Program-made: the position numbers and the translations under genes | Origin: Bremerella sp. P1 | Lineage (GTDB): Bacteria; Planctomycetota; Planctomycetia; Pirellulales; Pirellulaceae | Assembly: GCF_028748185.1 (NCBI RefSeq) | Contig: NZ_CP118164.1 | Coordinates: forward strand, 1,426,001-1,490,000 | Length of the DNA stretch: 64,000 nt | Reading direction: 5' to 3' | Part shown: piece after piece, positions 24,632 to 54,493 of the stretch | How positions within the stretch are numbered: the stretch's first letter is position 1 | Layout: each line of letters starts with the position of its first letter | The notes under the pieces: generated by a model | Seen by the model: only the letters and a program-made list of their open reading frames with translations | Told to the model about the DNA's origin: nothing | The model's database searches: none

Positions 24632-26739
<2,108 letters not shown>

Positions 26740-26743
<4 letters not shown>

Positions 26744-36790: not shown

Positions 36791-36881
36791 TCGAACCAGA
36801 AACTTAAGCCACTGCTGAACAAGTCAGCAGTGGCACACCACAAGTTATCCGAATCACATAATTCATTTACGGACGCCAATC

Positions 36882-38324: not shown

Positions 38325-38337
38325 TTTTCAAACATCG

Positions 38338-38450
38338 ATTGCCTCTCGCTCCGGTCGCCTCGTCCCGTTTGGGAAGAGGATTAGGGTGAGAGGCAATTTG
38401 GGTAGATAGATTGCCCTCACCCTCTTTCAGCGCGGACGTTGGAAAGGGCA
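38338..38450. repeat. Cluster of interlocking inverted repeats, REP-like
   Basis: ATTGCCTCTC (38338-38347) pairs with GAGAGGCAAT (38388-38397). GGTGAGAGGCAAT (38385-38397) also pairs, with one bulged base, with ATTGCCCTCACC (38410-38421), so alternative foldings exist. CCTCTTTC and GGAAAGGG follow (to about 38448). The CCTCTC/GAGAGG content resembles the repeat at 58651. It lies between two genes of one cluster. Confidence 0.6.
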
Positions 38451-38475
38451 TCGGAATGAAACAGGATCCCGAGGC

Positions 38476-39630
38476 ATGATTCCATTCGACTTCCAGCCAC
38501 GCACACGGATTGTGTTTGGTCCGGATAGCCTTCAGCGGCTCGGCGAACTGGCCCAAGAGCTCGGCGCGAAGCGTGCGCTGGTGGTCAGCGATCCTGGAGT
38601 CATCAAGGCGGGGCATACCCAGCATGGTATCGATTGCCTGGAATCGGCCGGCGTCGCGGCGTTTCTGTTTGACGGCGTGCAAGAGAATCCTTCGACGGTA
38701 AACGTCGCCAAGGGCGTTGCTTTTGCGAAGCAGCACGAGCCTGAGTTGATTGTCGGCTTGGGTGGTGGCAGCGCGATGGACTGTGCCAAGGGAATCAATT
38801 TCCTGCTGACCAACGGCGGCGAGATGAAGGACTACTGGGGAGTCGGTAAGGCAACCCAGGACATGCTTCCTATGATTGCCGTTCCGACCACCGCCGGTAC
38901 CGGCAGCGAGGCCCAATCGTTTGCCCTGATCACCGACGCCGAGACGCACGTCAAAATGGCCTGTGGCGATAAGAAAGCCGCCTGTCGAATTGCCCTACTC
39001 GATCCCAAATTAACAGTAACCCAGCCGCAAATGGTCACGGCCCTTACAGGGATCGATGCGATCAGTCATGCGTTGGAAACGTTCGTTACGAAGAAGCGAA
39101 ATGAAGTCAGCCTTAGCTTCAGCCGTGAAGCTTGGCGATTGCTCGCCGGCAACTTCACCAAGGTGCTTAGCAATCCGGAAGATGTCAAAGCTCGTGGTGC
39201 GATGCAATTGGGGGCCTGCTTTGCCGGCCTGGCCATCGAGAACTCGATGCTTGGCGCCGCGCACGCGCTCGCCAATCCGTTAACCTCCCACTACGGTGTG
39301 ATACATGGTCAGGCGGTGGGCGTGATGCTTCCTTCGGTGATTCGCTACAACGGCGAAGCATTCAACGAGCTTTACCAGGACCTGCTGACGATTCCGGTCG
39401 ATTTGCCCAACTATCCCAAGCCAGAGCAAGGTGCCGAAGGCCTGGCAGACCTGATCCAAAGCTGGGTAGATGCCGCAGGCCTGGCAACCAATTTGAATCA
39501 ACTGTCGATCAACGGCGAAAAGCTCGACACCCTTTCCGCCGATGCCGCCAAGCAGTGGACCGGGCACTTTAATCCCCGCGACGTCGACGCAGGCGAATTC
39601 TCGAAGCTTTACCAATCGGCCATGCAGTAA
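38476..39630 (+). CDS. Iron-containing alcohol dehydrogenase
   Basis: The 384-residue protein belongs to the group III (iron-dependent) alcohol dehydrogenases. Typical features are RIVFGPDSLQRLGEL near the N-terminus, the GLGGGSAMDCAKG dinucleotide motif (about 95-107), PTTAGTGSEAQSFALI, and the metal-ligand region with GIDAISHALE and the later HGQAVGVMLPSV. Length is typical. It would interconvert an aldehyde and an alcohol with NAD(P). Together with the two genes upstream it forms a plausible acid to aldehyde to alcohol series. The substrate is not known. Confidence 0.92.
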   Translation: MIPFDFQPRTRIVFGPDSLQRLGELAQELGAKRALVVSDPGVIKAGHTQHGIDCLESAGVAAFLFDGVQENPSTVNVAKGVAFAKQHEPELIVGLGGGSAMDCAKGINFLLTNGGEMKDYWGVGKATQDMLPMIAVPTTAGTGSEAQSFALITDAETHVKMACGDKKAACRIALLDPKLTVTQPQMVTALTGIDAISHALETFVTKKRNEVSLSFSREAWRLLAGNFTKVLSNPEDVKARGAMQLGACFAGLAIENSMLGAAHALANPLTSHYGVIHGQAVGVMLPSVIRYNGEAFNELYQDLLTIPVDLPNYPKPEQGAEGLADLIQSWVDAAGLATNLNQLSINGEKLDTLSADAAKQWTGHFNPRDVDAGEFSKLYQSAMQ

Positions 39631-39713: not shown

Positions 39714-40838
39714 ATGAAATTCAAACTGACGATACCGCTGACCGCGATCCTGTTCGCATTCGCAGCCATCGCTCAGCTGCGCGCGGACTGGCCCCTTTAT
39801 CGCGGTAATGCCCTCGCACAAGGTGTTTCCGACGAAACCTTGCCCGACAATCTGGATGTCCGCTGGAAGCTCGAAATCGACAATGGTGCCTTCGAGGCGA
39901 CTCCGATCGTCGTCGATGGGATCGTCTACATCGGCGATCTGGACGGACGGGTCTACGCCGTCAAGCTTGAGGACGGCTCGAAGGTCTGGACCTACGAAGG
40001 CAACGTCGATCAGCTCTCCGGTTTCATGGGGTCGCCTGCTTATCGCGAGGGTCGAATCTATGTCGGTGACATCGACGGGGTACTGCACTGCCTGAATGCT
40101 GAAGATGGCAAGCTCATTTGGAAGTTTGAAGCCGGCCTGGAGATCAACGGCAGCGTGAACTTTTACCAGGACAAGATCCTGATTGGCTCGCAAGATGCCC
40201 ATCTCTATTGCTTGAACAAAGAAGATGGCAAGCTGGCCTGGAAAGTTCAGATCGACGATCAAATCCGCTGCATGCCAACGGTCGTTTCCAATCGCGGATT
40301 CGTTGCCGGCTGCGACAGCAAACTTCACGTGATCGACCTGGATAAAGGTGAACCGATCGGCACGGTACCGATTGACGGTCCGACAGGTTCGGCGCCTGCG
40401 GTACGTGACAATGTTGCGTACTTCGGTACGGAAGCCGGTTCGTTTTTTGCTATCAACTGGAAAGACCTGAAGGTCATTTGGCAGTTCCAAGATGATCGGA
40501 ACCGCCAACAGATCCGCGCCAGTGCCGCCGTACTTCCCGATCGCGTAATTTACGGTTCGTTCAGCAAAAACCTCGTTTCGCTTGACCGTGAGACGGGGGA
40601 AGAACAATGGACGTTTAAAGCCCGAGGCAAGATTAACAGTTCACCGGTAGTCGCCGGGAACCGTGTCTACTTCGGTTCGGCCGACAGCCGCGTTCGTGCC
40701 GTCGACCTGAAGACCGGTAAAGAAGTTTGGCAATACGAGGCTAAGAGCGGTTTCCCCGCAGGCCCGGCGGTCTCAAACGACTGCCTGCTGATTGCTACCG
40801 AGCGAGGCGTGTTGTACTGCTTTGCCGAAAAGAAATAA
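39714..40838 (+). CDS. Secreted PQQ-binding-like beta-propeller protein (BamB/quinoprotein type)
   Basis: The 374-residue protein starts at ATG 39714, with AAGGA at eight bases and a signal peptide (LTAILFAFAAIAQLRA). The mature part is made of about seven or eight repeats, each with a W-x-tryptophan docking motif such as GSKVWTYEG, GKLIWKFEA, GKLAWKVQI, DLKVIWQFQD, GEEQWTFKA and GKEVWQYEA. This is the beta-propeller fold of PQQ-dependent dehydrogenases and BamB. Catalytic PQQ residues are not evident, so it is likely a binding or scaffold protein in the periplasm. Its link to the flanking enzyme genes is only by position. Confidence 0.85.
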   Translation: MKFKLTIPLTAILFAFAAIAQLRADWPLYRGNALAQGVSDETLPDNLDVRWKLEIDNGAFEATPIVVDGIVYIGDLDGRVYAVKLEDGSKVWTYEGNVDQLSGFMGSPAYREGRIYVGDIDGVLHCLNAEDGKLIWKFEAGLEINGSVNFYQDKILIGSQDAHLYCLNKEDGKLAWKVQIDDQIRCMPTVVSNRGFVAGCDSKLHVIDLDKGEPIGTVPIDGPTGSAPAVRDNVAYFGTEAGSFFAINWKDLKVIWQFQDDRNRQQIRASAAVLPDRVIYGSFSKNLVSLDRETGEEQWTFKARGKINSSPVVAGNRVYFGSADSRVRAVDLKTGKEVWQYEAKSGFPAGPAVSNDCLLIATERGVLYCFAEKK

Positions 40839-40908
40839 CTGACGAAAACACCCTTTCGCTAATGCCCGTTGTTGGCAAGTTAACCTTAGCAGAAAGCAAG
40901 ATTGATTC

Positions 40909-42219
40909 ATGGCCACCGATTCCACCAAGACCGAAGTCGGTAGTTACTTTATTTCCAACTATCCTCCATTCTCGCAGTGGAGCGAAGAGTACGCTGACGA
41001 TCTCAACACGGCGATGCACTCACCGCCGCGTGAAGGCGTACCGCTGGGCTTGTATCTGCACGTCCCGTTCTGCCGTAAGCGTTGTAAGTTCTGTTACTTC
41101 CGCGTCTATACCGATAAGAACGCCCAGGAAGTCGAAACGTATGTTTCCGCATTGGTGAAGGAAATCGAACTGGTCAGCCAGACCGAAGCGATGGGCGGCC
41201 GACCGTTCCGTTTTGTTTACTTTGGTGGTGGAACTCCGTCATTCCTGAGCCCAAAACAATTGAAGCGATTGGAAGATCGCCTGCGCACGAGCATCAGTTG
41301 GGACCAGGCAGAAGAAGTGACCTTCGAGTGCGAACCAGGTACCCTTCGCGAATCAAAGGTGAAGGCCCTTCGCGATATGGGCGTTACCCGATTGAGCCTG
41401 GGCGTCGAGAACTTCTTTGATCATATCCTGGAAGAAAACGGGCGTGCCCACCTTTCCAAGGAAGTCTACACCGCTTGGGAATGGATCGAGGCCGCCAAAT
41501 TCCCGAACGTAAATATCGACTTGATCGCCGGCATGGTCGGCGAAACGTGGGATACGTGGAAGGAAAACATCAAGAAGGTCCTCGAGTTCTCGCCAGAGAG
41601 CGTGACGATCTACCAGATGGAACTCCCGTTCAACACGGTCTACTCGCAAGACATCCTGGGCAACAAGATCGAGACGCCGGTTGCCGACTGGCCGATGAAG
41701 CGTGCCTGGGTGAGCTATGCGTTCGATGAACTAGCCAAAGCAGGCTACAGCGTCAGTAGCGCGTACACCATGGTCAAAGACCCCAGCAAGGTCAACTTCA
41801 GCTACCGCGATAACCTGTTCGGCGGCAGCGACCTTCTGGCCACCGGCGTGGCGAGCTTTGGCCACATCAGCGGCATTCACTACCAAAACAAGACCGAGTG
41901 GGCCGACTACACCGGCACCTTGCTCGACAAGGGAGAGCTCCCCCTCAAACGAGCTTACCGCCCGACGCCAGAGCAGCTGCTCATCCGGGAAACGATCTTG
42001 CTGCTCAAGCGAGGCTATCTGGATGCCGACTACTTCCGCCAGAAGTTTGGGGTTGAGATCCTCGAGAAGTGGTCCGACATCTGGAAGCAGTATCAGGAAG
42101 AAGGCTTCGTCACGATCAATGGAGACCGTATCGAACTGACACGAGACGGATTACTGCGAGCCGATGGCCTGCTGCCGCCGTTCTTTGAACCGCAGTTCCA
42201 GGGAGTGCGGTACACCTAA
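40909..42219 (+). CDS. HemN/HemW-like radical SAM protein
   Basis: The 436-residue protein carries CRKRCKFC (Cys55, Cys59, Cys62), the CxxxCxxC motif of radical SAM enzymes. YFGGGTPSFLSPKQLKRLED and VTRLSLGVENF are typical of the HemN family, including HemW-like heme chaperones and unrelated SAM methyltransferases. The extended C-terminal domain is also HemN-like. In contrast to classic hemN, it stands in an operon with a lipoyl carrier and a ferredoxin. It shares one base with the carrier gene, so translation is coupled. The substrate cannot be decided; coproporphyrinogen oxidation is one option and modification of the adjoining carrier is another. Confidence 0.85.
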   Translation: MATDSTKTEVGSYFISNYPPFSQWSEEYADDLNTAMHSPPREGVPLGLYLHVPFCRKRCKFCYFRVYTDKNAQEVETYVSALVKEIELVSQTEAMGGRPFRFVYFGGGTPSFLSPKQLKRLEDRLRTSISWDQAEEVTFECEPGTLRESKVKALRDMGVTRLSLGVENFFDHILEENGRAHLSKEVYTAWEWIEAAKFPNVNIDLIAGMVGETWDTWKENIKKVLEFSPESVTIYQMELPFNTVYSQDILGNKIETPVADWPMKRAWVSYAFDELAKAGYSVSSAYTMVKDPSKVNFSYRDNLFGGSDLLATGVASFGHISGIHYQNKTEWADYTGTLLDKGELPLKRAYRPTPEQLLIRETILLLKRGYLDADYFRQKFGVEILEKWSDIWKQYQEEGFVTINGDRIELTRDGLLRADGLLPPFFEPQFQGVRYT

Positions 42220-42674
42220 TGAGTGACGAGTTGGTTTTCATGATGGGGAAATTCGAGGCCCGGTTCCCCACCGATCGGCTATACGCCAAAAACCACTGCT
42301 GGGCGACCCGAAGCGGAGATTCCTACCGTTTCGGGTTTTCTGCATATGCGGTGCGTTTGCTGCAGGATGTCTATTTCCTGGAGTGGCAGGTTGACGAAGG
42401 TGCTAAAATTACCGAAGGTCAAGAGATCGGCTTCATTGAAAGCAGCAAAGCCGAAAGTGAGCTCTATCCCCCCATTCCCGGTGTTCTGGCGCGGTTGAAC
42501 CCCGAGTTGATGAGCGACCCTTCCCGGATTAACGTCGATATGTACGGCGAAGGATGGCTCTACGAGATTGAAGGGAGCGGCGAAAAGCTGCTCGACCCGC
42601 ATCAATATATCGAGCACCTTGCGTCGGTCTGGGAAGTCACCCAGCGGACCATCAAGGGACAACTGAACGAGTAA
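42219..42674 (+). CDS. GcvH-like lipoyl carrier protein, outside a glycine cleavage operon
   Basis: The 151-residue protein resembles the H-protein of the glycine cleavage system. The lipoylated lysine is predicted at Lys77 in IESSKAESELYPPI. Downstream GVLARLNPELMSDPSRIN and MYGEGWLYEI match the H-protein fold. No gcvT or gcvP gene lies nearby. Stand-alone H-like carriers are known as lipoyl carriers in other pathways, including sulfur-oxidising systems. Here it is coupled with a radical SAM gene (1-base overlap) and followed at five bases by a ferredoxin-like gene. The lipoyl arm may shuttle a reaction intermediate or electrons. Confidence 0.85.
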   Translation: MSDELVFMMGKFEARFPTDRLYAKNHCWATRSGDSYRFGFSAYAVRLLQDVYFLEWQVDEGAKITEGQEIGFIESSKAESELYPPIPGVLARLNPELMSDPSRINVDMYGEGWLYEIEGSGEKLLDPHQYIEHLASVWEVTQRTIKGQLNE

Positions 42675-42678
42675 CCCC

Positions 42679-43755
42679 ATGCCCAAACGTTTGACGGTCG
42701 TCGTCAGCCAAGGCCAGAGCAACAATCCAGTCAAGCGCAAGCTGGAAGAGGATATCGTTGCGTCGCTGCTGTTTGAGCCTGGTATCGAGGTAACGATCGT
42801 TCCTCACCTGTACGACTTGAAGACCGACGGCCCAGGTATCATGGGCCTGCAAGCGATCACCACCGACTTCGTGGTCATCTCGTGGCTGTACGAACGAGCC
42901 ACTCGCTGGACGCTCGACCGAAACAACATCCGCGGCAAGGAAGGCACAACCCTGCTGATCCATGAATCGGATGAAGACGAAGACGATTTGCTGGATGACG
43001 AACCGGCCGACGAAGACAAGTTGCGGGTTATCGAGAATCGCCCCATTCCCAACCGTCTGATTTACTGCATCGACCTGCGAGTTTCAAACGAAGTCGCAGA
43101 CTATGTGGAAGAGGTAAAACGCATTCAGAAAGAGATCTCGACCCAGGTGGTTCAACTGGGCGGACTCGGCGCAGCACCTTCCCCCACGCCTGAGCAGCTC
43201 GAGCGCGTCGCCAATCCGACCAACGACACCGCCTTGAAAGAAGGCGGAGAACTCGAAAAGCCGGAAGTGATCGAACCCTTCCGTATCGAAGAAGACGCCA
43301 AGCGGCGTTGGTACCCGGTGATCGACTACAGCCGCTGCACCAACTGCATGGAGTGCATCGACTTCTGCTTGTTCGGTGTGTACGGCGTCGACGGGGCCGA
43401 GACTATCCTGGTCGAGATGCCCGACAACTGCCGCAAAGGTTGCCCTGCTTGCAGCCGCGTGTGCCCGGAAAATGCGATCATCTTCCCGCAGCACAAAACG
43501 CCCACGATTGCCGGAAGTGATGAAGTCGCCGGCGGTGGCTTGAAGATCGATCTCTCGCAACTGTTCGGTAAGCCGAAGGAAGACGAAAAGTCACTCGATA
43601 CGGCCGTCCGCGAACGGGACGAACAGTTACTGCTGGCAGGCCGCGAGGCTGTCGGTGAAGCCGTGGGCGTGCCGAAACGCCAGGCTGAAAAGGATGAACG
43701 CGCGAAAGACGATCTCGACGATCTGATCGATGCCGTCGACGAGTTGGATATCTAA
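42679..43755 (+). CDS. Two-cluster 4Fe-4S ferredoxin-like protein with N-terminal domain
   Basis: The 358-residue protein has an N-terminal region of about 210 residues, including VVISWLYERATRWTLDRNNI, which I do not recognise. It then has two cysteine groups. The first is CTNCMECIDFC (Cys220, 223, 226, 230). The second is CRKGCPACSRVC (Cys251, 255, 258, 262). Each fits a [4Fe-4S] cluster, though the second has an extra residue between its first two Cys. The C-terminus is charged (DDLDDLIDAVDELDI). It could pass electrons to the adjoining radical SAM enzyme or accept them from the lipoyl carrier. No signal or membrane segment is present. Confidence 0.85.
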   Translation: MPKRLTVVVSQGQSNNPVKRKLEEDIVASLLFEPGIEVTIVPHLYDLKTDGPGIMGLQAITTDFVVISWLYERATRWTLDRNNIRGKEGTTLLIHESDEDEDDLLDDEPADEDKLRVIENRPIPNRLIYCIDLRVSNEVADYVEEVKRIQKEISTQVVQLGGLGAAPSPTPEQLERVANPTNDTALKEGGELEKPEVIEPFRIEEDAKRRWYPVIDYSRCTNCMECIDFCLFGVYGVDGAETILVEMPDNCRKGCPACSRVCPENAIIFPQHKTPTIAGSDEVAGGGLKIDLSQLFGKPKEDEKSLDTAVRERDEQLLLAGREAVGEAVGVPKRQAEKDERAKDDLDDLIDAVDELDI

Positions 43756-43768
43756 GACTCGTTCGACC

Positions 43769-43791
43769 AGTGACTAGTTTCGATAGTCACT
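43769..43791. terminator. Hairpin between convergent genes, weak terminator candidate
   Basis: AGTGACTA (43769-43776) and TAGTCACT (43784-43791) form an 8-bp stem with a 7-base loop. It lies 14 bases after the ferredoxin stop and overlaps the end of the convergent gene. There is no T-run. Confidence 0.35.
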
Positions 43792-44664
43792 ATGGCAAGC
43801 CGAGCAAGAAGCCTTGACCGCTTTGAGCGTTTTCGTGGCTTCTGACGTCTGATGAGCTTCGATCTGCTGCTTCAGCTTCTTGCTGAGCGATTCGCTTTCG
43901 GCCAGCATCTTGCGGAACTTCGCGTCGTACTGATGTTCCATCAGTAAGCGTCCTGTTTCATGCAGGCCTTCTTGCATCAGCAGTGCCTGCTGGGCTGGAT
44001 CGAGATCGGCATGTTCTGGCGGGGCTTTCCAGTTGGCCTTCTCGCAAAGAACGAGCTGATCATAGATTCGATCAATCTTAGCCATCGCCGCGGCGACCGA
44101 TTCCACCTCGGCCACTTCGACCAGCATCGGAAGCTCGGTCGTGATCGCAATGGGCTTAAAGTCGGTAATCTCTTTCCACAGCCCACCATAGTCGGAACTG
44201 GTACCGGCGCTCCGCATGAAGTCGAGGGCCTGATTCTCGGTCAGTCCGCCTGACTCATAGCAAGCGACCGCCGCGGCAGCCGGACCGCGATGCTTGCCGT
44301 GATGACAATGAAAGAAGATCTTGTCTTGCTGGAAGTCTTGCATCACCCGCTTGAGTGCAGCCTGTGCCTCGTCGGAGATGCCGTCGTAACCGATGGGGAC
44401 ATGAACGTACCGCATGCCGTACTTTCGCGCGTTCTCGACATCTGGCGTCGCCCCATCGACCGAGACGATCACATCGATGCCCAACTCTTTCAGGGTCTTA
44501 AAGCCCTCCTCTCCGTGTGGCTGGCTGCCACTGACAACGTTACGAGTTACCTTCAACACGTTGTCGACGCCAGGCAGATGCTCGCCATGAGGAAGCTTCG
44601 AAGGATCTTGACCGAGCACGGTTGATCCAAGCAAAAGAACCAGCAGGCAGACAGCGATACGCAT
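43774..44664 (-). CDS. Secreted protein-tyrosine/dual-specificity phosphatase-like domain with a terminal cytochrome c heme motif
   Basis: The 296-residue protein starts at ATG 44664 with a signal peptide (MRIAVCLLVLLLGSTVLG). The middle carries HCHHGKHRG (His119 to Gly127), a Cys-x5-Arg signature with nucleophile Cys120 and Arg126, and VSVDGATPDVENARK and RYVHVPIGYDGIS as in dual-specificity phosphatases. The last 100 residues are helical and end with CSACH (Cys287, Cys290, His291), the covalent heme-binding motif, in the position used by class II (cytochrome c') proteins. The two domains on one secreted protein are unusual. Both activities are inferred. It is a single gene, convergent with the ferredoxin gene. 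Confidence 0.78.
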   Translation of the reverse strand: MRIAVCLLVLLLGSTVLGQDPSKLPHGEHLPGVDNVLKVTRNVVSGSQPHGEEGFKTLKELGIDVIVSVDGATPDVENARKYGMRYVHVPIGYDGISDEAQAALKRVMQDFQQDKIFFHCHHGKHRGPAAAAVACYESGGLTENQALDFMRSAGTSSDYGGLWKEITDFKPIAITTELPMLVEVAEVESVAAAMAKIDRIYDQLVLCEKANWKAPPEHADLDPAQQALLMQEGLHETGRLLMEHQYDAKFRKMLAESESLSKKLKQQIEAHQTSEATKTLKAVKASCSACHSDYRN

Positions 44665-44780
44665 GGAGATTTTCAAAGTCTGGGGGTAGAGGACGAGGCA
44701 ATCGCTGAAAACTTCTGGCTTAGCCTGCAGGCCGCAAAACAATCTTAGTTTAGAGGGAATCTACACAACGTTCAACGAAT

Positions 44781-46085
44781 TCACGCCTTGGTAGACGAAT
44801 CGACTTCCAACTGAACGAGGTTATCCGGAGCCGCAGGCGAGTATGTCCCGCCTTGGTGAATCGTCGGCTGCCAGTTCTCGATATTGAAGTTCTTCTGGTA
44901 CGCCCCATAGTCATGAAAAGCATACTTCTTCAACAGCCAGTAGACCCAACTCTTCTCAGGGATTTCGTTTCCTGGATTGTATTGCGATGGATTCGACTTC
45001 AGCACGTCGAGTTCTTGATACGCCTCGCCTCGCACGGTCGTATCTTTCGCATCATGCTCGCGGGCAAAGTTACCCAAAAGATCGGGTCGCTCGAGGATGA
45101 TGCAGCCACGGGTATTCTTTGCTGCCAGTTCGCGGAAGTCGCGTAGGTACTCCGACTCGTTGAAAACCTGCCGTAGCGGTCGCTCGTCGTGAATCGATTC
45201 CTTCGCGAATTGAATCACTGGGCACGGCTCGATATCACCATAGGGACTGATGTGATGCGTGAAGCCGGTTGCCGCTGGGCACAACGCGTTGCCGTCGGCA
45301 TCGTGATAGGCATCGATGATAGCGATTGGCTTTTTCGTTCGCATCTCGACGACAAACTTCCGCACGGCCAACTGTTGTTCCGGCGTGAGCGCAAGATCCG
45401 GATTAGGTACCGGTCCCACCACGCGGTACCCATGGTACCAACAGTAGAAGACCCCCATTTCGATCAACCGATCGATCCACTCTTCTCGCAGCAGGTCATC
45501 AAAGTTCGACTGACACAAACTGGTGCACACGCCGGTCAGCAGCTTGTTATTGATGCAGTTGTGAATCCCTTCCATCGACTTGCTGTACACACCGCCGCGA
45601 CCGCGACGAACGTCGCTGATGATCTCGGTCCCTTCGATACTGATCAGCGGAGTGACATTGCCCAGCTTGCGAAGTTCCTTGGCAACTTCATCGGTAATGA
45701 AGTGCCCATTGGTGAACACCTGAAAGTAGGCGTCCTGATGTCGGCGGAAGATCTCCAGAATGTCAGCATGCATGAACGGTTCGCCACCGAGGATTCCGAA
45801 GAACGCATTCCCCATCGCTTTGGCTTCGCCCAACATCCGGTCCATCGCATCGAGATCGATCTTCGACTGCTTGGCGGAAACATCGACCCAACATCCCTGG
45901 CAGCGCAGGTTACAGCTGTTGATGACCGAGATGTACAAAAACGGCGGAAAGAACTCGCCCCGCTTGAGACGAGCTTTGTGCTTCTGAACGCTGCGCAGGC
46001 CCTTGTAGCCCATCAGCCACAGGAACTTGGCAACGAGACGTTTGTCGGTTTCCAGCAGAGCGCGTTTCGCCAGACGGAAATACAT
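44781..46085 (-). CDS. Radical SAM protein with C-terminal cysteine-rich region
   Basis: The 434-residue protein has the radical SAM motif CNLRCQGC (Cys58, Cys62, Cys65), then ILGGEPFMHADILEIF (GGEP-type SAM-binding) and VFTNGHFITDE. The C-terminal half has Cys in ALCPAATGFTHHISPYGDIEPCPV, which resembles a SPASM-type auxiliary cluster. N-terminally it starts with a basic amphipathic helix. ATG 46085 is chosen because of an AAGG site nine bases upstream. It is divergent from the class II cyclase operon at 46248, which suggests a shared regulatory region. It is related in outline to HpnH but lacks the HpnH-specific segments. Confidence 0.85.
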   Translation of the reverse strand: MYFRLAKRALLETDKRLVAKFLWLMGYKGLRSVQKHKARLKRGEFFPPFLYISVINSCNLRCQGCWVDVSAKQSKIDLDAMDRMLGEAKAMGNAFFGILGGEPFMHADILEIFRRHQDAYFQVFTNGHFITDEVAKELRKLGNVTPLISIEGTEIISDVRRGRGGVYSKSMEGIHNCINNKLLTGVCTSLCQSNFDDLLREEWIDRLIEMGVFYCWYHGYRVVGPVPNPDLALTPEQQLAVRKFVVEMRTKKPIAIIDAYHDADGNALCPAATGFTHHISPYGDIEPCPVIQFAKESIHDERPLRQVFNESEYLRDFRELAAKNTRGCIILERPDLLGNFAREHDAKDTTVRGEAYQELDVLKSNPSQYNPGNEIPEKSWVYWLLKKYAFHDYGAYQKNFNIENWQPTIHQGGTYSPAAPDNLVQLEVDSSTKA

Positions 46086-46247
46086 GCAGATACCTTGGAG
46101 GGATCGAGGGGAGACGTGCAGCAACTTATTCTAACCCAATAGGTCGCAAAAGTCAGTGGAAACCACGCCGACGATGGACACGTTTTGCCACGCCATTTAC
46201 CATGCAAGGACCTTTGTCCGCTTGCCTTTCTGTCTATTTGTGCCTGC

Positions 46248-48110
46248 ATGATTGACCCTGCTCGAGTTCGCGCCTGCTACGAAACCGCCAAACAAGATCT
46301 CCTCAAAGAGCGCGATCCATCCGGACATTGGATTGGCGAGCTTTCCACGTCGGCCTTATCGACAGCAACCGCAGTAAGCGCCTTGCAGCTCGCAGTGCGA
46401 AATGGCTCACAATCCAGCAATGCCGATGTGTCACTCATACGTGGGGGTGTCCAGTATCTGCTCGACCATCAAAACACCGACGGTGGGTGGGGCGATACCG
46501 AGCTGAGTTTCTCCAACATTGCCACCACCATGCTGGCCGTTGCTGCCCTGACCCTTACCGGCGATGCCGAGAAAAACCCAAGTGTCCTGTCGGCTGCCAA
46601 CACCTACATCGAAAAGAAAGGTGGCATTCTCGGACTGCGTGCTCGCTATGGGAAAGACAAGACGTTTGCGGTTCCGATTCTAACGAACTACGCGTTGGCC
46701 GGACTGGTCGATTGGAAAGAGGTCGCTCCCCTTCCCTTCGAGGCCGCCGTGCTGCCGCAGTCGTTCTACAAGTTCATTCAGTTGCCGGTCGTCAGCTATG
46801 CGATCCCGGCACTGGTCGCAATCGGCCAAGCTAAGTTCTATCACGACAAGCCCTGGAACCCGGTCATGCGCATGATCCGTGGTGCCATGTTCAACTCGGC
46901 GGCGAAAGTCCTGACCAAGATGCAGCCCGAAAGTGGCGGCTACCTGGAAGCGATCCCACTTACCAGCTTTGTCGTGATGAGCCTGGCCGCTACCGAACGA
47001 GCCAACAGCCAGGTTGCCCAGAATGGTCTTCGTTTCATCCGCGAGAGCGTTCGACCCGACGGAAGCTGGCCTATTGATACGAACCTGGCGACCTGGGTCA
47101 CCACGCTTTCGATCAACGCTCTCTCGGTGCTGGAAGATGACAACTCGCATCTCACGCCGGAATGTCTTGAGTGGCTTTTAGACTGTCAAACCAAGGAAAT
47201 TCATCCGTTTACCGGGGCGGCTCCAGGTGCTTGGGGCTGGACCGATTTAAGTGGCAGCGTCCCCGATGCAGACGATACCCCTGGGGCGCTACTGGCACTA
47301 CGAAAGTTCTACGACCATGGTGACTTCGATTCCGATACGCACAAGCGAATTGAGGAGGCCGCAACGGCCGGCAGCCAATGGCTGATTGACCTGCAAAATC
47401 GTGACCGCGGCTGGCCCACTTTTTGTAGCGGGTGGGGAACACAACCGTTTGATCGCAGTGGGAGCGATATCACCGCCCATGTGATGCGTGGACTGTATGT
47501 GTGGGCCTGGACTTGGGCGCACCTGCGGGTCAATCCACTGGGGACCGGCATGAGTTATCTCACCAAGTATCGTCACGAAGATCATTGGCTTCCACTTTGG
47601 TTTGGCAACCAGGATCGCGAGGAAGAAGACAATCCGATCTACGGCACTTCGAAGGTGCTTTGTTTCTTCCGTGATACGTTTAATCCCGAGATTCCCCTGC
47701 CGGATAAGGTAGCGGAAATTCGTGATAACGCTCTCAACTGGCTTGCGAATCAACAAAATGAAGACGGTGGTTTTGGGGGTGGTCAGGCCGTCAAAGATGC
47801 CACCAATGGACGATATGAAAGCAGCGTCGAGGAGACTTCGCTGGCCATTGAGGGGCTACTCTGCGACAATAAGGGCATAGAAAACTACCCAGGCCTCGAG
47901 AAAGCCGTGGATTGGCTGTGTCGTCGGGTCGAGGAAAATTCTCATATCGAATGTTCGCCAATCGGTTTTTACTTCTCTAAGCTGTGGTATTATGAAAAGC
48001 TCTACCCGCGGATCATGACGGTCAGTGCGCTGGCCCATGTATGCCGAGCGTATGATGCCAATGTGCGCGGCAATGCCCTTAGCGGAAGTGGAACGAGAGA
48101 ATCGAGTTAA
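46248..48110 (+). CDS. Second class II terpene cyclase (squalene-hopene cyclase superfamily), unknown product
   Basis: The 620-residue protein is built of alpha-alpha barrels with QW-type repeats (for example HQNTDGGWGDTEL, ESVRPDGSWPIDT, LQNRDRGWPTF, NQQNEDGGFGGGQ). The acid motif is VPDADDTPGALLAL, with Asp340, Asp342 and Asp343, which fits the proton-donating DxDD of squalene-hopene and sporulenol-type cyclases. Identity to the Shc at 24632 looks low, so it is a separate cyclase. The start at ATG 46248 lacks a clear RBS. The next gene starts 12 bases after it and encodes a polyprenyl synthase, so it may cyclise a linear polyprene rather than squalene. No signal peptide. Confidence 0.88.
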   Translation: MIDPARVRACYETAKQDLLKERDPSGHWIGELSTSALSTATAVSALQLAVRNGSQSSNADVSLIRGGVQYLLDHQNTDGGWGDTELSFSNIATTMLAVAALTLTGDAEKNPSVLSAANTYIEKKGGILGLRARYGKDKTFAVPILTNYALAGLVDWKEVAPLPFEAAVLPQSFYKFIQLPVVSYAIPALVAIGQAKFYHDKPWNPVMRMIRGAMFNSAAKVLTKMQPESGGYLEAIPLTSFVVMSLAATERANSQVAQNGLRFIRESVRPDGSWPIDTNLATWVTTLSINALSVLEDDNSHLTPECLEWLLDCQTKEIHPFTGAAPGAWGWTDLSGSVPDADDTPGALLALRKFYDHGDFDSDTHKRIEEAATAGSQWLIDLQNRDRGWPTFCSGWGTQPFDRSGSDITAHVMRGLYVWAWTWAHLRVNPLGTGMSYLTKYRHEDHWLPLWFGNQDREEEDNPIYGTSKVLCFFRDTFNPEIPLPDKVAEIRDNALNWLANQQNEDGGFGGGQAVKDATNGRYESSVEETSLAIEGLLCDNKGIENYPGLEKAVDWLCRRVEENSHIECSPIGFYFSKLWYYEKLYPRIMTVSALAHVCRAYDANVRGNALSGSGTRESS

Positions 48111-48122
48111 GCAACCTTGCCT

Positions 48123-49970
48123 ATGCCTTCCCCCTCCCAGCCTGAATCAAACGGTGGTGCCAAGAAGCGGGTTTCCCGCCGCCGCAAGACTGCCCACCTG
48201 AAGCAAGTCCCTGATCGCTTGGCGCTGCGCGAAGAGATCCGGGATCGTTGTTATCAGATCTGCGAGAAGCTCGACAAATCGCGCCCTCTCTCCAAAGACG
48301 AAATGGAGAAGCTCACCCGCGCACTGCTCGAGGACATGAACCTGCCCGAGTCGTACGTCGGCTGGACGCTGGTGATGATGACATCCGCCTTCTGGCGCGA
48401 TCAGGTCTCGGCCATTCCACCAGAAAGAAGACTCTTTCTGCTGCCACATTGCTTAAAGCATGCCGAGGGTTGCCCGGCCGACTACGATCAGTTCGGTCTC
48501 GACTGCAAGACCTGCGGAGCATGTAGCATCGCCGACTACCGTACCCAAGCCGAAGAACTGGGCTACCGGGTTCTCGTCGCCGAAGGCTCGCCAATCGTGA
48601 TGAAGATCCTGGTGAGCGGCTACGTCGATGCCGTTGTCGGCGTGGCGTGCCTGAACGTACTCGAGAAGGCTTTCGATAAGATCCTACTCGCTGGCATTCC
48701 CTGCATGGCCGTGCCGCTGCATTCCAGCGACTGCCGCAACACGTCGGTCGACGAACAGTGGGTCTTCGATATGATCCACCTGCCGCACCGCGAACCACAG
48801 CAAAAGACGGCGACTTACGTCCACCTGATGCGCGCCGCTCAGGAAATGTTCGATCGCCAAGAGCTAACCCGTTTGATCGCCCCTCAGCGGCAAACGGATG
48901 CGACCACCAATGCCGAGTTGGTCGATCTACCGAACATCGATCCGATTGCTGCGACCGAACGACTAGCCATCGATTTCATTGGCCGTGGTGGTAAGTACTC
49001 GCGGCCGTTTACAACGCTTGCCGTCTACGACTCTCTAACCGGCGGACAGGGCACGTCGCCCGATGGAGCCGCCCACGTCGCTGGCTATAGCGATGCGGTC
49101 AAGCGCAGTGCACTCGCAATTGAAACGTTCCATAAAGCTTCGCTCGTCCATGACGACATCGAAGACGACGACGAGTTCCGCTACGGCGAACCGACCGTCC
49201 ATCGCCAGTTCGGCATATCGACCGGGATCAACCTGGGCGACTACATGATCGGGCTCGGCTATCGCCTGGTTAGCCGCGAAGTCAAAACACTTGGTGCAGA
49301 AGTCGTCGCCAAAATCGTCGACCAACTGGCCGAAGCACACATGCGTCTCTCGGAAGGCCAAGGGGCCGAACTGATGTGGCGTGACTCAGCCAGCAAAGAG
49401 TTGACGCCGATCGACGCGTTGAAAATATATGCGTTGAAAACTTCCCCGGCGTTCGAGGCCGCCCTGCACTGCGGTATCGCGTTGGCCAAGACGCGGGAGG
49501 ATTACCGTGACGAGATGCGGAAGTTTGCCCGTCATGTGGGTGTCGCTTTCCAGATCTTGAACGACCTGAAAGACTGGCTTGGCGATTCCGACAACAAACT
49601 ATCTGCCGGTAACGACATCATCGGCGGCCGCCCGACGGTGCTGTGGGCTTTGGCTCTGCAGAACCTGAAGGAAGATCGCAAAAACGAACTTATTCAGATT
49701 GCGAACGATCCCGATTTAACCGCCGCCGCGAAGATTCAGCGGGTGCGAAGCCTTTACCTCGAAGGAGGCGTTTTCGAGGCCGCACAACAGCTGGTCGAAA
49801 AATATCGAGCAAAAGCGGAAGAAATCGCCGATGAAATCGACCCTGAACCCTTCCGACGATTGTTGTATTATCTAGTCGATTCGATTTTGGAAACGACCGA
49901 GGAGCACAAACCAACGATCGTCATTCCAACCACCCAACTCGAATTCCCCTTGGCCGCGCCCACCTCCTAG
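48123..49970 (+). CDS. Fusion of DUF116 domain with polyprenyl diphosphate synthase
   Basis: The 615-residue protein has two domains. Residues about 35-245 match DUF116, with Cys110, Cys117 and the triplet Cys128, Cys131, Cys134 (CKTCGAC), which may bind a metal or cluster. Residues about 280-600 form an all-helical isoprenyl synthase. The first Asp-rich motif is HDDIEDDDE (Asp344 to Asp350), with GRGGKYSRPF before it and GINLGDYMIGLG after it. The second motif is NDLKDW (Asn480 to Trp485), where the first Asp is replaced by Asn. It would elongate farnesyl-type diphosphates. The gene is 12 bases after the cyclase gene and 65 bases before a chorismate-lyase-like gene. The start could also be TTG 48117. 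Confidence 0.88.
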   Translation: MPSPSQPESNGGAKKRVSRRRKTAHLKQVPDRLALREEIRDRCYQICEKLDKSRPLSKDEMEKLTRALLEDMNLPESYVGWTLVMMTSAFWRDQVSAIPPERRLFLLPHCLKHAEGCPADYDQFGLDCKTCGACSIADYRTQAEELGYRVLVAEGSPIVMKILVSGYVDAVVGVACLNVLEKAFDKILLAGIPCMAVPLHSSDCRNTSVDEQWVFDMIHLPHREPQQKTATYVHLMRAAQEMFDRQELTRLIAPQRQTDATTNAELVDLPNIDPIAATERLAIDFIGRGGKYSRPFTTLAVYDSLTGGQGTSPDGAAHVAGYSDAVKRSALAIETFHKASLVHDDIEDDDEFRYGEPTVHRQFGISTGINLGDYMIGLGYRLVSREVKTLGAEVVAKIVDQLAEAHMRLSEGQGAELMWRDSASKELTPIDALKIYALKTSPAFEAALHCGIALAKTREDYRDEMRKFARHVGVAFQILNDLKDWLGDSDNKLSAGNDIIGGRPTVLWALALQNLKEDRKNELIQIANDPDLTAAAKIQRVRSLYLEGGVFEAAQQLVEKYRAKAEEIADEIDPEPFRRLLYYLVDSILETTEEHKPTIVIPTTQLEFPLAAPTS

Positions 49971-50035
49971 CCCCACCTGATCGATCCCGTTGGCCAACTC
50001 AAGTTTCGTTTCCCTTTGCAGCAAAAGGAACCGAC

Positions 50036-50581
50036 GTGAAACCGTCTCGCCATACGATGCCTGAGCTTAGCCAGCTGATCGCCCTCTTTTATGATAAGCC
50101 TGAGGAACTAGGGCAATTCGAAGAAGTCTCTGCCCAGCAGACGCCTGCTCCGTTTCATCAGTTGCTCGCCCACAACGAACACATGACGGTCACCGTCGAG
50201 AAGTTCCACGGTTGCAACGTCGACGTGAAGGTTCTCGAGAAGCGAACCGAAGGGCAGTACTACTCGCGAAAGATTCTGCTCACACGGCAGAGTGACGGCA
50301 AGGTCGTGCAGTATGGAATCGTCCGCTTGAATTGCGACTTCCTGGACGAAGAGCCTGCCAACGAAATCAAGAGTGAACGCATTCCGCTGGGCCGCGTCCT
50401 GATCGAGCACGACGTTCTGCGAGAAGTTCAACTGACCTGCCTGTGGCACATTCAACCGGCCGCAGAACTTCGCCAATTGATGGGTCTCGAGCCGAACGAA
50501 ACCGTCTACGGACGAACGGCTCTGATCTACTGCAACGGCGAGCCAGCCGTTGAACTGCTGGAAATCGTAACCCGCGACTAA
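50036..50581 (+). CDS. Chorismate lyase/UTRA-fold protein
   Basis: The 181-residue protein fits the fold of chorismate pyruvate-lyase (UbiC) and UTRA domains. YYSRKILLTRQSDG matches the strand with the substrate-binding Arg, LGRVLIEHDVLREVQLTC is the central part, and VYGRTALIYCNGEPAVELLEIV parallels the UbiC ending with its Glu. True UbiC releases 4-hydroxybenzoate from chorismate. Whether these residues suffice here is unsure. The GTG at 50036 has AAAGGA six bases upstream; ATG 50057 is the alternative. As third gene behind a cyclase and a polyprenyl synthase, it could supply an aromatic head group. No UbiA-type prenyltransferase is in the window. Confidence 0.65.
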   Translation: MKPSRHTMPELSQLIALFYDKPEELGQFEEVSAQQTPAPFHQLLAHNEHMTVTVEKFHGCNVDVKVLEKRTEGQYYSRKILLTRQSDGKVVQYGIVRLNCDFLDEEPANEIKSERIPLGRVLIEHDVLREVQLTCLWHIQPAAELRQLMGLEPNETVYGRTALIYCNGEPAVELLEIVTRD

Positions 50582-50589
50582 AATCCTTC

Positions 50590-51981
50590 TTACGCGACCG
50601 GCTTACGCAGCTCTGCCAATTGCTTGGAAATAGGCTTCCAAGCAACATCCTGTGGCAAGCAACTTTCTTTGGCGGCCAGGGCCGCGGTTACCCCGGCGGC
50701 TTCTCCCATAGCCACCGCATTCCCGGTCACGCGGTAGCTGGCATGCGCGAAGAAGTCGCCACTGATACAGCGGCCCGCCATCATCAGTCCGTCGACGTCC
50801 GATGCAATGAGTGCCCGCAGCGGAATATCAAATGGCTTGGCTTTGACGCCTTGGCCGCTGTAAGCAGCCTTCTTGTTTTCCTCTCGGGTCGCCGCGTGAA
50901 TATCAACACTGAACTCGCTGCGGCAGATGGCGTCTTCATGTCGGGCACCTTCGCGGACATCATCGACCGTCACAAAGTAGCGACCCTTGATGCGTCGCCC
51001 ATCACGCACGCCGATCTGCTCGGCCGTAGTTACCAGGCGGCAGTCGCCCCAGGCACCACCCAGCCCCTTGAGCCCTCGGCAAATATCGTACAACTCGCGG
51101 CGAGCACGAATGGTTGCCTCGGTGACGGCCCCGGCGTCGAACGGACGCACGCCGTACTCGTGATTCATCATCACTGCGGCGACACTGCCTCCCATGTACC
51201 AGAGTGTTGGTTTGGCGTACGAAGGGTCAATACCGGCCTTCTGGATGAATGCTCGGAACTCGTCCTTCGTCTGACCACCCTTGAGCCGGTCGAATTGCTG
51301 CAGTGCTTCAGGGCTGGCCGTGATGATTCCCATCAACGACATCGGCTGACAGGGGCAATCCTCTTCGCGACCGAACTCCCACTTACAGCCCGCCAATGCC
51401 CCGACATCACCATCGCCGGTCGTATCGACCACTGTATTGGCTCGCCAGGCCTGACGCCCCGACTTCGACTCGGTAATCACACCACGTACTCGATTAGCCG
51501 AATCCTTCTCGACGGCCACAATTCGCGTGTGATACTGCACTTTGATCTTGTTCTCGTCACACAACTCTTCGAGCAGCACCTTCATGCTCTCGACATCGTA
51601 GATGTAATTCTTCTTGCCGCTGTGCCGAACGGCATCCATCTGTTCGAGTCGACGAGGAAGCTCGGCATTAAGGCCCGGCTTTTCGGCATCCATCACGTAT
51701 GAAAGCATCCCGCTGGTCCATACGCCCCCCAGACAACCATGCGCTTCAAGCACTCGCACCGAGGCCCCGGTTCGCGCGGCGCTGATCGCTGTCGCGATGC
51801 CCGCCGGTCCACCACCGCAAACCAACACGTCGGTCGTATCCGCCACGGGAATTGTTCGCTGCGGCTCGGTAAGCTGATTCGGCGAATCACCGCCGGCATC
51901 GGCCCCATGTAATGCGGCCGGCAAGAGAACGCCTGATACGGAAGCGGCTAGAATCTGACGACGGGAAAGGGCACTGGTCAT
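50590..51981 (-). CDS. Secreted FAD-dependent oxidoreductase with Tat signal
   Basis: The 463-residue protein begins at ATG 51981 with a twin-arginine signal (SRRQILAASVSGVLLPAAL). The mature part has the FAD motif DVLVCGGGPAGIATAISAAR, then GCLGGVWTSGML, TVVDTTGDGDVGALAGC and, at the C-terminus, DGLMMAGRCISGDFFAHAS. This is the FAD-dependent oxidoreductase family (PF12831-like) that is highly expanded in Planctomycetes. The substrate is unknown. Secretion in folded form by Tat fits a bound flavin. It is convergent with the chorismate-lyase-like gene, with only eight bases between the stops. Confidence 0.88.
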   Translation of the reverse strand: MTSALSRRQILAASVSGVLLPAALHGADAGGDSPNQLTEPQRTIPVADTTDVLVCGGGPAGIATAISAARTGASVRVLEAHGCLGGVWTSGMLSYVMDAEKPGLNAELPRRLEQMDAVRHSGKKNYIYDVESMKVLLEELCDENKIKVQYHTRIVAVEKDSANRVRGVITESKSGRQAWRANTVVDTTGDGDVGALAGCKWEFGREEDCPCQPMSLMGIITASPEALQQFDRLKGGQTKDEFRAFIQKAGIDPSYAKPTLWYMGGSVAAVMMNHEYGVRPFDAGAVTEATIRARRELYDICRGLKGLGGAWGDCRLVTTAEQIGVRDGRRIKGRYFVTVDDVREGARHEDAICRSEFSVDIHAATREENKKAAYSGQGVKAKPFDIPLRALIASDVDGLMMAGRCISGDFFAHASYRVTGNAVAMGEAAGVTAALAAKESCLPQDVAWKPISKQLAELRKPVA

Positions 51982-52244
51982 GAAGAACTCTCTCGTGAAG
52001 AGGTGGCAGGAAGCGTCATCCAAAGGGGGGAGACAGGCTGAATGACGCGTTCTAGTCTAACAATCCCGGTAGGGAATCTCCAACGCAAAACCAACTTCCC
52101 AAACCGCCTAAACTCCGAGGAAAAGTGCCCAACTCGGTCTGGTATCGCGCTATCGCGGCGTTTAGAATGGGCCGATAGTTGTTCAACCAACTGTCTTCTC
52201 AACGTGTTTTGCCCGCCCCACTCCACCATGAAGGCCGCATACCC

Positions 52245-52469
52245 ATGAGATACGTGGTATGGCTACTGGTCGTAGCCCTCATCATCCTCCATCAAGATCT
52301 TTGGTACTGGGACGATCGCACCTTGGTTTGGGGCTTCATGCCGATCACGCTCCTGTGGCAAGCCGGCATTTCAATCGGAGCAGGCCTCGTGTGGTTTCTG
52401 GCCACCATCTTTGCCTGGCCAACCGACTTGATTGAAGAGACCCAACAGGAAGTGGAAGGGGGCGAATAA
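52245..52469 (+). CDS. DUF3311 small membrane protein, symporter partner
   Basis: The 74-residue protein has two hydrophobic helices. RYVVWLLVVALIILHQDLWYW and WGFMPITLLWQAGISIGAGL match DUF3311, which nearly always precedes a sodium:solute symporter gene. It starts at ATG 52245 and its stop overlaps the symporter start by one base. It may be a small subunit or assembly factor of the symporter. The longer upstream frame from 52179 has no signal-like features. Confidence 0.85.
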   Translation: MRYVVWLLVVALIILHQDLWYWDDRTLVWGFMPITLLWQAGISIGAGLVWFLATIFAWPTDLIEETQQEVEGGE

Positions 52470-54493
52470 TGGTACCGTTGATTGTCATCTGCGTTTATCT
52501 CTTGTTGCTGTTGGGCCTGGGTATCTTCGCGAGCACCTTGTTCCGGGGTTCCAGCCAAGACTATATGCTGGCCAGTCACTCGATTGGTCCGTTCCTGCTG
52601 TTGATGAGCTTATTCGGCACCACCATGACGGCATTCGCGCTGGTTGGTTCGACCGGTGAAGCCTATGCCGAAGGTGTCGGTGTGTACGGCTTGCTTGCTT
52701 CCTCCAGCGGTATTATTCACTCGCTCTGCTTCTTCGTGCTGGGTATCAAGCTTTGGTCCCTGGGCAAGAAGTATGGATACACGACCCAAATTCAATTCTT
52801 TCGAGACCGCCTGCAAAGCGATAAGATCGGCATTTTGCTGTTTCCGATTCTCGTCGGTCTGGTGATCCCCTACCTGCTGATCGGTGTGATGGCTTCGGGA
52901 ACGGTGATCAGCGCGGTGAGCGAAGGCGCCTTCTCGAACATGTTTGCTCAGTACGACTACGGTGTACCGAACTGGCTGGGCAGCCTGGTCATTTCGATCG
53001 TCGTGCTGATCTACGTTTTCTTTGGTGGCATGCGTGGAACGGCGTGGGCCAATGCTTTCCAGACGATCGTATTCATGATCTTGGGGATCATCACCTTCTG
53101 GGTCATTTCTAGCACCTTGGGCGGTGTTCAATCAGCGTCCGAAGCCGTTGAGAAACGCAACCCTTCCAAACTGATGCGATCGGTTGCCGAGTCGGACGAA
53201 CAAAAGTACGAGAAAGCGTTCGCCACGTGGCGATCGCTGGCCGAGTACAACTACGCCAACAAGAAGGCCGATGGCAATCTGCTGACGGCTGAGCAAAAGG
53301 AAAAAGCCGTCGCGGACTACAAGGGTCCGCCTATCGGTAACTGGAAAGCCCGAGCCGAAGCCAACTTGGCTGTGGCCAACAACCTGATCGATCTGACGGT
53401 CGCCGAAAAGAACGATTCGTACATAGAACAAGACGACCGTGCCATGCCCGAGGAGAAGCCTGAGTGGTGGGATAAGGAAGTCATGACCGGCCACGAGCTG
53501 AACGAGTTCCACCGCAACGAAGCAGCCGTTCTTCAGGCCTACAGCGATCCGATCTACAACAAGAACATGGGTCACCCCAACGAGCTGATCAATCCCGATA
53601 AGCCAGAACTGGGAACCAAGTGGACCCGCAAACGGACCGCTGGTGTTTATCGTGCCACGAAGTGGTCTCCCGAGGAACCACGCGGCATGTCCATGCTGGT
53701 ATTCATTACCTACATGTTCATTCCGCTTTCGGTTGGCATGTTCCCGCACTTGTTCCAGCACTGGCTGACAGCCAAGAGCGCCCAAAGCTTTAAGCTTCCG
53801 GTGGTTGCCCACCCGCTGTTCATTGCCATTGTCTGGATCCCATGCGTTCTGGTTGGTGTCTGGGCGACTTCCGCAGTGGTACCTGGTACCGAACGGGCAC
53901 TGATTCCGCCGCACTTTAACCCCAACGCAGTGTTGCCGTTTATGGTGGCCAACATGAGTGGGCCATTTTTGAGCGGTCTGCTCACCGCCGGCGTTCTGGC
54001 GGCGATCATGTCATCGCTCGACAGCCAGTTCCTCTGTATCGGCACGATGTTCACAGAAGATATCGTCGTGCATTACGGTGGCAAGAAGCGATTCAGCGAC
54101 AAACAGGTGGTGATTATCGCTCGCTGCTTCATAATCGCGATCGTGGCGATCACGTACATCCTCAGCCTGTACGAACCACGCCGTGTGTTTACGCTGGGTG
54201 TGTGGACGTTCAGTGGGTTCTCAAGCTTGTTCCCGCTGGTCTTCGCTGCACTCTACTGGAAGCGTCTCACCAAGGCAGGGGCCTATGCTTGTGTGATTAC
54301 CGCGATCAGCCTGTGGTGCCTGTTCTTCTACATGAGCGACATGGCCTTGAATCCGCACTTCACCGTCTTCGGTATGATGCCTGTGGCAACGATGGTGCCG
54401 GCGGCAGCGATCGCGATGATTGTCGTTTCGCTAATGACTCAGCCGCCCAGCGAAGAGCACTTGGAGCGTTTCTTCCCCAAGAAGGGACTGTAG
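52469..54493 (+). CDS. Sodium:solute symporter with a large soluble insertion
   Basis: The 674-residue protein is an SSS-family transporter. Helices with [20 protein letters not shown] and [18 protein letters not shown] match family motifs. It takes up an unidentified solute using the sodium gradient. Between two helices, residues about 220-405 form a polar, charged insertion (for example [20 protein letters not shown]), which most SSS members lack. The insertion is probably on one face of the membrane. The gene is coupled with the DUF3311 gene and ended by a strong terminator. Confidence 0.88.

Follow-up and report, generated by a model that had tools for sequence, protein, structure and literature searches.

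A DUF116–polyprenyl synthase fusion and its class II cyclase partner in Bremerella sp. P1: candidate parts of a cyclised polyprenoid pathway in Planctomycetota

A locus in the planctomycete Bremerella sp. P1 places a class II terpene cyclase beside a fusion of a DUF116 domain with a polyprenyl diphosphate synthase, in a genome that also carries a squalene-hopene cyclase (SHC; gene shc), and this raises the question of what the additional cyclase makes. The locus is at positions 44781–50581 of the window, i.e. the whole 64,000-nucleotide stretch that was analysed, bases 1426001–1490000 of a single 6.96-Mb contig (NZ_CP118164.1, assembly GCF_028748185.1). With somewhat better than even confidence, we read it as the local part of a pathway, present in part of the Planctomycetota, that would make a cyclic polyprenoid from a precursor other than squalene. 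A larger gene set, carried together by about a quarter of the sampled planctomycetes, probably builds a ring-shaped lipid out of a long isoprenoid chain, distinct from the hopanoids of the neighbouring genes. We infer every chemical step from co-occurrence, gene order, motifs and the absence of a squalene synthase in some carriers. The features concerned are listed below (window positions unless stated).

46248–48110, plus strand: class II (DxDD) terpene cyclase, 620 amino acids (aa); SQHop_cyclase_C and SQHop_cyclase_N domains
48117–49970, plus strand: DUF116–polyprenyl diphosphate synthase fusion; start TTG 48117 or ATG 48123
48321–48776, plus strand: DUF116 domain of the fusion, residues 69–220; 129.3 bits, cut-off 25
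48972–49739, plus strand: polyprenyl synthase domain of the fusion, residues 286–541; polyprenyl_synt 148.7 bits, cut-off 27
44781–46085, minus strand: radical SAM enzyme, 434 aa; Radical_SAM 60.5 bits, CxxxCxxC and three more invariant cysteines
42679–43755, plus strand: ferredoxin with two 4Fe-4S motifs and an N-terminal extension, 358 aa; Fer4 matches; constant partner
42219–42674, plus strand: GcvH-like protein with lipoyl-lysine site, 151 aa; GCV_H 72.4 bits
Contig 1555493–1556338, 65 kb beyond the window: toroid protein C3, about 300 aa; alpha/alpha-toroid
50036–50581, plus strand: chorismate-lyase-like protein (DUF98/UbiC/UTRA fold), 181 aa; assigned by fold; family-level accessory
46086–46247, no strand: divergent intergenic region of 162 bp between the radical SAM and cyclase genes; from the sequence
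40909–42219, plus strand: HemN-like radical SAM protein, 436 aa; Radical_SAM 78.2 bits; accessory, at few loci

In a sample of 199 Planctomycetota genomes the cyclase is found in 46, across 26 families. The fusion is present in 50, the radical SAM enzyme in 41, the C-terminal 161 aa of the ferredoxin in 49 and the toroid protein in 46. Cyclase and fusion overlap in 45 genomes (Fisher p 9e-38; these p values ignore the relatedness of the genomes). The 46 cyclase genomes contain the radical SAM enzyme in 40 cases, the ferredoxin in all 46 and the toroid protein in 45, and every one of the 49 ferredoxin genomes has the fusion or the cyclase. The GcvH-like protein has matches in 182 of the 199 genomes, mostly as an ordinary GcvH would, and gives no clean count; the 33 genomes with the top matches all have the fusion or the cyclase. 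The fusion was found in 64 genomes at E ≤ 1e-20, of which 14 were dropped because the match was to the synthase half in a synthase of ordinary length; the 50 kept include G098 (a contig end with the synthase half only) and G075 (the DUF116 half only). For the radical SAM enzyme, 65 genomes matched at E ≤ 1e-25 and the 41 with at least 318 bits were kept, the next score being 198. The earlier note on this DNA, made from the sequence alone, had proposed a terpenoid pathway additional to the hopanoid set and had included the radical SAM enzyme in it. Both proposals are upheld: the genes co-occur far above chance, and the radical SAM enzyme is present in 40 of the 46 cyclase genomes, with a looser adjacency to the fusion (27 of 41).

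There are six exceptions to the pairing of cyclase and fusion. G010 has the cyclase without the fusion, and G028, G041, G065, G075 and G087 have the fusion without the cyclase; G028 and G087 are without the ferredoxin as well. All are drafts of 79–90% completeness with the exception of G087, which is 99% complete and served as a negative control. It is without cyclase, radical SAM enzyme, ferredoxin and toroid protein.

Gene order was followed in two sets of loci. The first consists of 41 loci, i.e. 40 fetched from the phylum genomes plus the window, on which profiles seeded with the window and neighbour proteins were mapped over stop-to-stop frames. The second, termed the named loci, was selected by the DUF116 domain and comprises, out of 548 confirmed relatives, the best 80, with flanks of up to 10 kb that are often cut by contig ends. 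Among these best 80 of 548, 78 titles name a planctomycete group and two give "bacterium" only, and the nearest named DUF116 domains are those of Blastopirellula sp. NORP48 (75%) and B. marina DSM 3645 (77%), which suggests a source within the Pirellulaceae or close to that family. Relatives in viral contigs were not confirmed. Fusion and cyclase are on one contig in 37 of the 45 genomes that have both, within 500 bp in 19, within 3 kb in 34 and within 6 kb in 36, with one pair 440 kb apart. The named loci contain the cyclase in 76 of 80, the toroid gene in 16 and the GcvH-like gene in nine.

A compact order recurs, which is GcvH-like protein, CobW GTPase, C8 (a four-cysteine protein of about 118 aa), ferredoxin, radical SAM enzyme, fusion, toroid protein C3, cyclase and cysteine desulfurase. 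In L094, from genome G057, the desulfurase stands first and is followed by GcvH-like protein, CobW, C8, ferredoxin, radical SAM enzyme, fusion, toroid protein and cyclase; L106 has all nine genes in a different order. Such compact operons occur in families other than that of the window. CobW is found at 21, C8 at 16 and the desulfurase at 12 of the 41 loci, and profile mapping places none of the three in the window. The HemN-like radical SAM gene is at three of the 41 loci and at nine of the 80 named loci, where it is beside the GcvH-like protein and the ferredoxin; its product matches 19 NCBIfam families, each with a score under the cut-off.

The earlier note had described four genes, and for these the open reading frames (ORFs), strands and coordinates all agree with the sequence. 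The radical SAM start codon at 46085 and the cyclase start codon at 46248 leave the 162 bases claimed between them, the DxDD motif of the cyclase is present and reads DADD, and the fusion carries both of its Pfam domains above cut-off in one protein. What had been overlooked is the larger module: in the window the genes at 40909–43755 (HemN-like radical SAM, GcvH-like protein and ferredoxin), beyond it the toroid gene, and elsewhere CobW, the four-cysteine protein and cysteine desulfurase. Rfam gives no family at gathering score in 40000–52500, the divergent intergenic region included.

The strongest alternative to a polyprenoid substrate is that the cyclase is a diverged squalene cyclase which makes a second triterpene, the fused synthase just supplying farnesyl diphosphate for squalene. 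The Pfam scores place the protein in the wider family (SQHop_cyclase_C 97 bits, cut-off 26.1; SQHop_cyclase_N 76.8, cut-off 26.2), and NCBIfam matches it best to squalene and oxidosqualene cyclases, as this alternative would have it. DxDD is kept in all 105 cyclases longer than 480 residues, and His399 of the alignment is invariant. Module cyclase and Shc (TIGR01507; window 24632–26743) have in common the class II families, the DxDD acid and the toroid repeats. An ordinary Shc it is not: the TIGR01507 score is 98.6 bits against a cut-off of 431.1, identity to the window Shc is 20%, the gene partners differ, and a tree splits 21 module cyclases from four SHCs at 100/100, with long branches and a bootstrap that had not settled. 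One of the four SHCs is an unannotated Cupriavidus ORF that was labelled SHC in this analysis.

The supply of squalene bears on the same choice. PF00494 covers HpnC, HpnD, squalene synthase and phytoene synthase. The earlier note had placed a complete hopanoid set in the window; two PF00494 proteins at about 8967–10609 and the Shc, which is the genome's strongest SQHop_cyclase_C match, are confirmed, and the gene called hpnH was compared only with the radical SAM enzyme of the module. Further weak SQHop_cyclase_C matches lie in the genome outside the window, e.g. at contig 5741737–5742003 and 6938326–6938604. In 11 of the 46 cyclase genomes a PF00494 protein is absent (E ≤ 1e-5). These are G057 (99% complete), G126 (91%), G025, G031 and G183 (each 90%) and six below 90%. 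In at least some of these carriers the cyclase should therefore not depend on self-made squalene, and it is because of these genomes that a cyclised polyprenoid, which the earlier note had also proposed, is favoured over a second hopene. On the other side, a PF00494 protein is present in 35 of the 46 cyclase genomes, that of Bremerella sp. P1 included, and G140, of the same genus as G183, has one, so that some of the absences may be assembly gaps. Streptomyces, too, has a polyprenyl synthase next to a class II cyclase within a hopanoid cluster of the usual kind (L205), the same pairing as in the module. With the separate clade, the low SHC score and the carriers of 90–99% completeness set against it, a second triterpene is judged unlikely.

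Of 119 fusion frames, 118 have KASL[VI]HDDI[EQ]D as the first Asp-rich motif of the synthase half, and one gave no match to it. The window protein has NDLKD as its second Asp-rich motif, which is DDxxD in part of the family. Alanine occupies position −5 of the first motif, as in the HTATLIHDD synthase of the same genome, which we take to be long-chain, and unlike the HAYSLIHDD of a third synthase, which we take to be short-chain. Alanine at this position permits longer products. The accessible part of the review PMC7839719 does not show this rule. On this rule the residue at −5 is not of the short-chain kind, which counts against a mere supply of farnesyl diphosphate.

There is a known parallel in sporulenol synthase (tetraprenyl-beta-curcumene cyclase) of Bacillus, in which a class II enzyme cyclises a polyprenyl chain other than squalene. 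The module cyclase would work likewise if the polyprenoid reading is right, a likeness drawn from the general description of that enzyme. The iron-sulphur (Fe-S) and radical SAM partners are extra in the module.

The gene downstream of the fusion raises a second alternative, namely a meroterpenoid pathway in which a chorismate lyase gives 4-hydroxybenzoate that is prenylated by a UbiA protein and then cyclised, on the model of merosterol-type clusters. The earlier note had called the 181-aa product UbiC/UTRA-like, and the fold agrees: Foldseek ranks 2nwi (AF1396, DUF98; E 2e-8) first, followed by effector domains of the UTRA type and by chorismate lyase 1g81 (E 2e-5). The fold is thus shared with the DUF98/Rv2949c-like and UbiC chorismate lyases, with no sequence match above cut-off. 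In all 33 aligned relatives His37-Met38-Thr39, Glu43, Arg66, Gly107, Arg148 and Glu164 (domain numbering) are invariant, and Arg66 and Glu164 are presumably the counterpart of the catalytic pair of E. coli UbiC. In 74 of the best 80 of 548 relatives the gene follows the fusion directly, and three UbiA-family genes are present in the genome.

Against this, all three UbiA-family genes are outside the window, and UTRA domains share the fold. The window protein has no Pfam match; those of the 33 relatives are all weak, with DUF4388 in six and the Rv2949c-like family in four (best E 0.041). Among PDB sequences the top match of a profile of the protein is a nucleoporin (E 0.015), with 2nwi close behind (E 0.02). 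In the phylum sample the gene is in 31 of the 199 genomes, 24 with the cyclase and seven without it, and it lies within 5 kb of the fusion in four of the 24 sampled genomes that have it together with the cyclase. Its attachment to the locus is largely a feature of the window's family and its neighbours. A meroterpenoid pathway is therefore quite improbable as an account of the module, and of the chorismate-derived head group proposed in the earlier note the UbiC-like fold stands, with a distribution (24 of 46 cyclase genomes) that leaves the proposal weak. The same distribution qualifies the expectation that the four genes keep together in planctomycetes: cyclase, fusion and radical SAM enzyme co-occur, adjacency is looser, and the chorismate-lyase-like gene follows them chiefly near home.

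The DUF116 half of the fusion belongs to a cysteine-rich family (PF01976, COG1852), in which it scores well above cut-off and from which it differs by the fusion to a polyprenyl synthase. Seven cysteines are kept in 37–38 of 39 copies. Two fusions depart from this with the synthase motif kept. In that of the negative control G087 (L085) four of the seven cysteines are gone and the usual neighbours are absent, and in a second fusion of G105 (L087) all seven are gone, the sole module-profile match in 18 kb being a weak 53-bit toroid match on the opposite strand. The family is also present in methanogens, and a scan of plasmid records gave one weak match, which was explored for gene context. The archaeal family is described as a predicted metal-binding protein with CxxCxxC in the accessible part of PMC5898192, the only paper on it found in the literature searched.

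The partner proteins were compared with known families. The radical SAM enzyme has CxxxCxxC, and six cysteines in all, in 24 of 24 copies. Like HpnH (TIGR03470), it is a radical SAM enzyme whose gene has a class II cyclase gene as neighbour; an assignment to HpnH is rejected by 40.9 bits against a cut-off of 225.05 and by 21% identity over 183 residues to the HpnH-type gene of the window. The GcvH-like protein falls below both NCBIfam GcvH cut-offs (77.1 against 115.85 bits and 88.5 against 117); its lipoyl lysine is kept in 28 of 28 aligned module copies, and the genome holds a second GcvH match. The best solved relative of the toroid protein is Rab geranylgeranyltransferase beta (E 2e-5). 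It was considered as a zinc prenyltransferase and rejected, the expected zinc-ligand Cys and His being absent, as judged by eye, among its conserved residues. Nor has C8 significant support as a protein like the HdrA N-terminus, one of 16 members matching an HdrA model at E 0.11.

A bolder version of the pathway, set in many Planctomycetota families, would have the DUF116 Fe-S and long-chain synthase fusion reductively remove or alter the diphosphate in the manner of IspH; the DxDD cyclase would close rings at the distal end, and the radical SAM enzyme with the lipoyl H-like carrier would finish an orphan membrane lipid. This version is a long shot. Prenyl chains with a tricyclic head are the precursors that geochemists have postulated for tricyclic terpanes (cheilanthanes), and if this version is true, aquatic planctomycetes would be a candidate source of them. 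The literature searched held nothing bearing on a planctomycete source of cheilanthanes. The least probable alternative sees in the module chiefly a redox or cofactor machinery, with a prenyl part serving as cofactor or membrane anchor and not as membrane lipid. It draws on the Fe-S, lipoyl or metal-handling nature of most full-operon genes and on the ferredoxin in 46 of 46 cyclase genomes, and it is very doubtful given that the constancy of cyclase, toroid protein and fusion is about the same and that CobW, the four-cysteine protein and the desulfurase are at only a minority or about half of the loci, as counted above.

In the favoured reading, in which squalene is not the precursor of the cyclised polyprenoid, the synthase half would make a medium or long polyprenyl diphosphate. 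The DxDD cyclase would start ring closure by protonating the distal end of this chain or of a prenyl derivative, and the toroid protein may be its partner. The DUF116 half, probably with an Fe-S cluster, may draw electrons from the module ferredoxin and act on the prenyl diphosphate or on the product, which the radical SAM enzyme would modify. The GcvH-like protein may be a lipoyl carrier or redox arm, and in the window's family the chorismate-lyase-like protein may add an aromatic unit.

Besides the points already given in favour of a second triterpene, several observations weigh against this reading. Co-occurrence is stricter than adjacency. The radical SAM gene lies no more than 10 kb from the fusion in 27 of 41 genomes; for the ferredoxin this holds in 36 of 48, for the toroid gene in 32 of 45. 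Partners farther away are in some cases distant on the same contig and in others on separate draft contigs, and even in G121, a member of the window's family, fusion and ferredoxin are far apart. Here again, the named loci (best 80 of 548) contain the radical SAM gene in 25 and the ferredoxin in ten. Gene distances correlate (r 0.51–0.95), for which shared descent alone suffices. In NCBIfam the radical SAM enzyme comes closest to a peptide maturase and to heme-modifying enzymes, with every score far under cut-off, and there is therefore no sign of a lipid substrate in its sequence. Chain length read from the single residue at −5 is weak evidence. The assignment of the DUF116 half as a probable Fe-S domain is drawn from its cysteines; an AlphaFold model of it (mean pLDDT, the predicted local distance difference test, 85; 18 sequences) matched no solved PDB fold at E ≤ 0.001. 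A stand-alone DUF116 gene of the clostridial Acetoanaerobium (L204 2203–9637) stands among translation genes, in the order priA-def-fmt-DUF116-Zn peptidase-rsmB-rlmN.

Two further groups of genes adjoin the locus. Between ferredoxin and radical SAM enzyme, at 43774–44742, a gene encodes a phosphatase-like and then a cytochrome c′-like domain, both weak matches. It was rejected as part of the module, being at two of the 41 loci and one of the 80 named loci. Upstream of the HemN-like, GcvH-like and ferredoxin genes, at 35663–39630, are an AMP-ligase-like gene, an aldehyde dehydrogenase and an iron alcohol dehydrogenase. Among the best 80 of 548 relatives the aldehyde dehydrogenase recurs in six and the alcohol dehydrogenase in nine, in compact form in L131, and these genes are possibly an accessory branch.

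Class II cyclisation is a known kind of reaction, and the gene set appears undescribed in the literature searched, which held no paper on it; Santana-Molina 2020, on polycyclic triterpene synthesis, may already show the cyclase clade. Planctomycete terpene cyclases and polyprenyl synthases are mentioned in general terms in the accessible parts of PMC8303584 and PMC4982196, and that of PMC6770870 just cites a paper on tricyclohexaprenol.

If the favoured reading is true, part of a large and abundant phylum would have a class of polycyclic terpenoids besides hopanoids and sterols. It would also give DUF116 a chemical context, and orphan cyclic polyprenoid biomarkers would have a testable genetic source.

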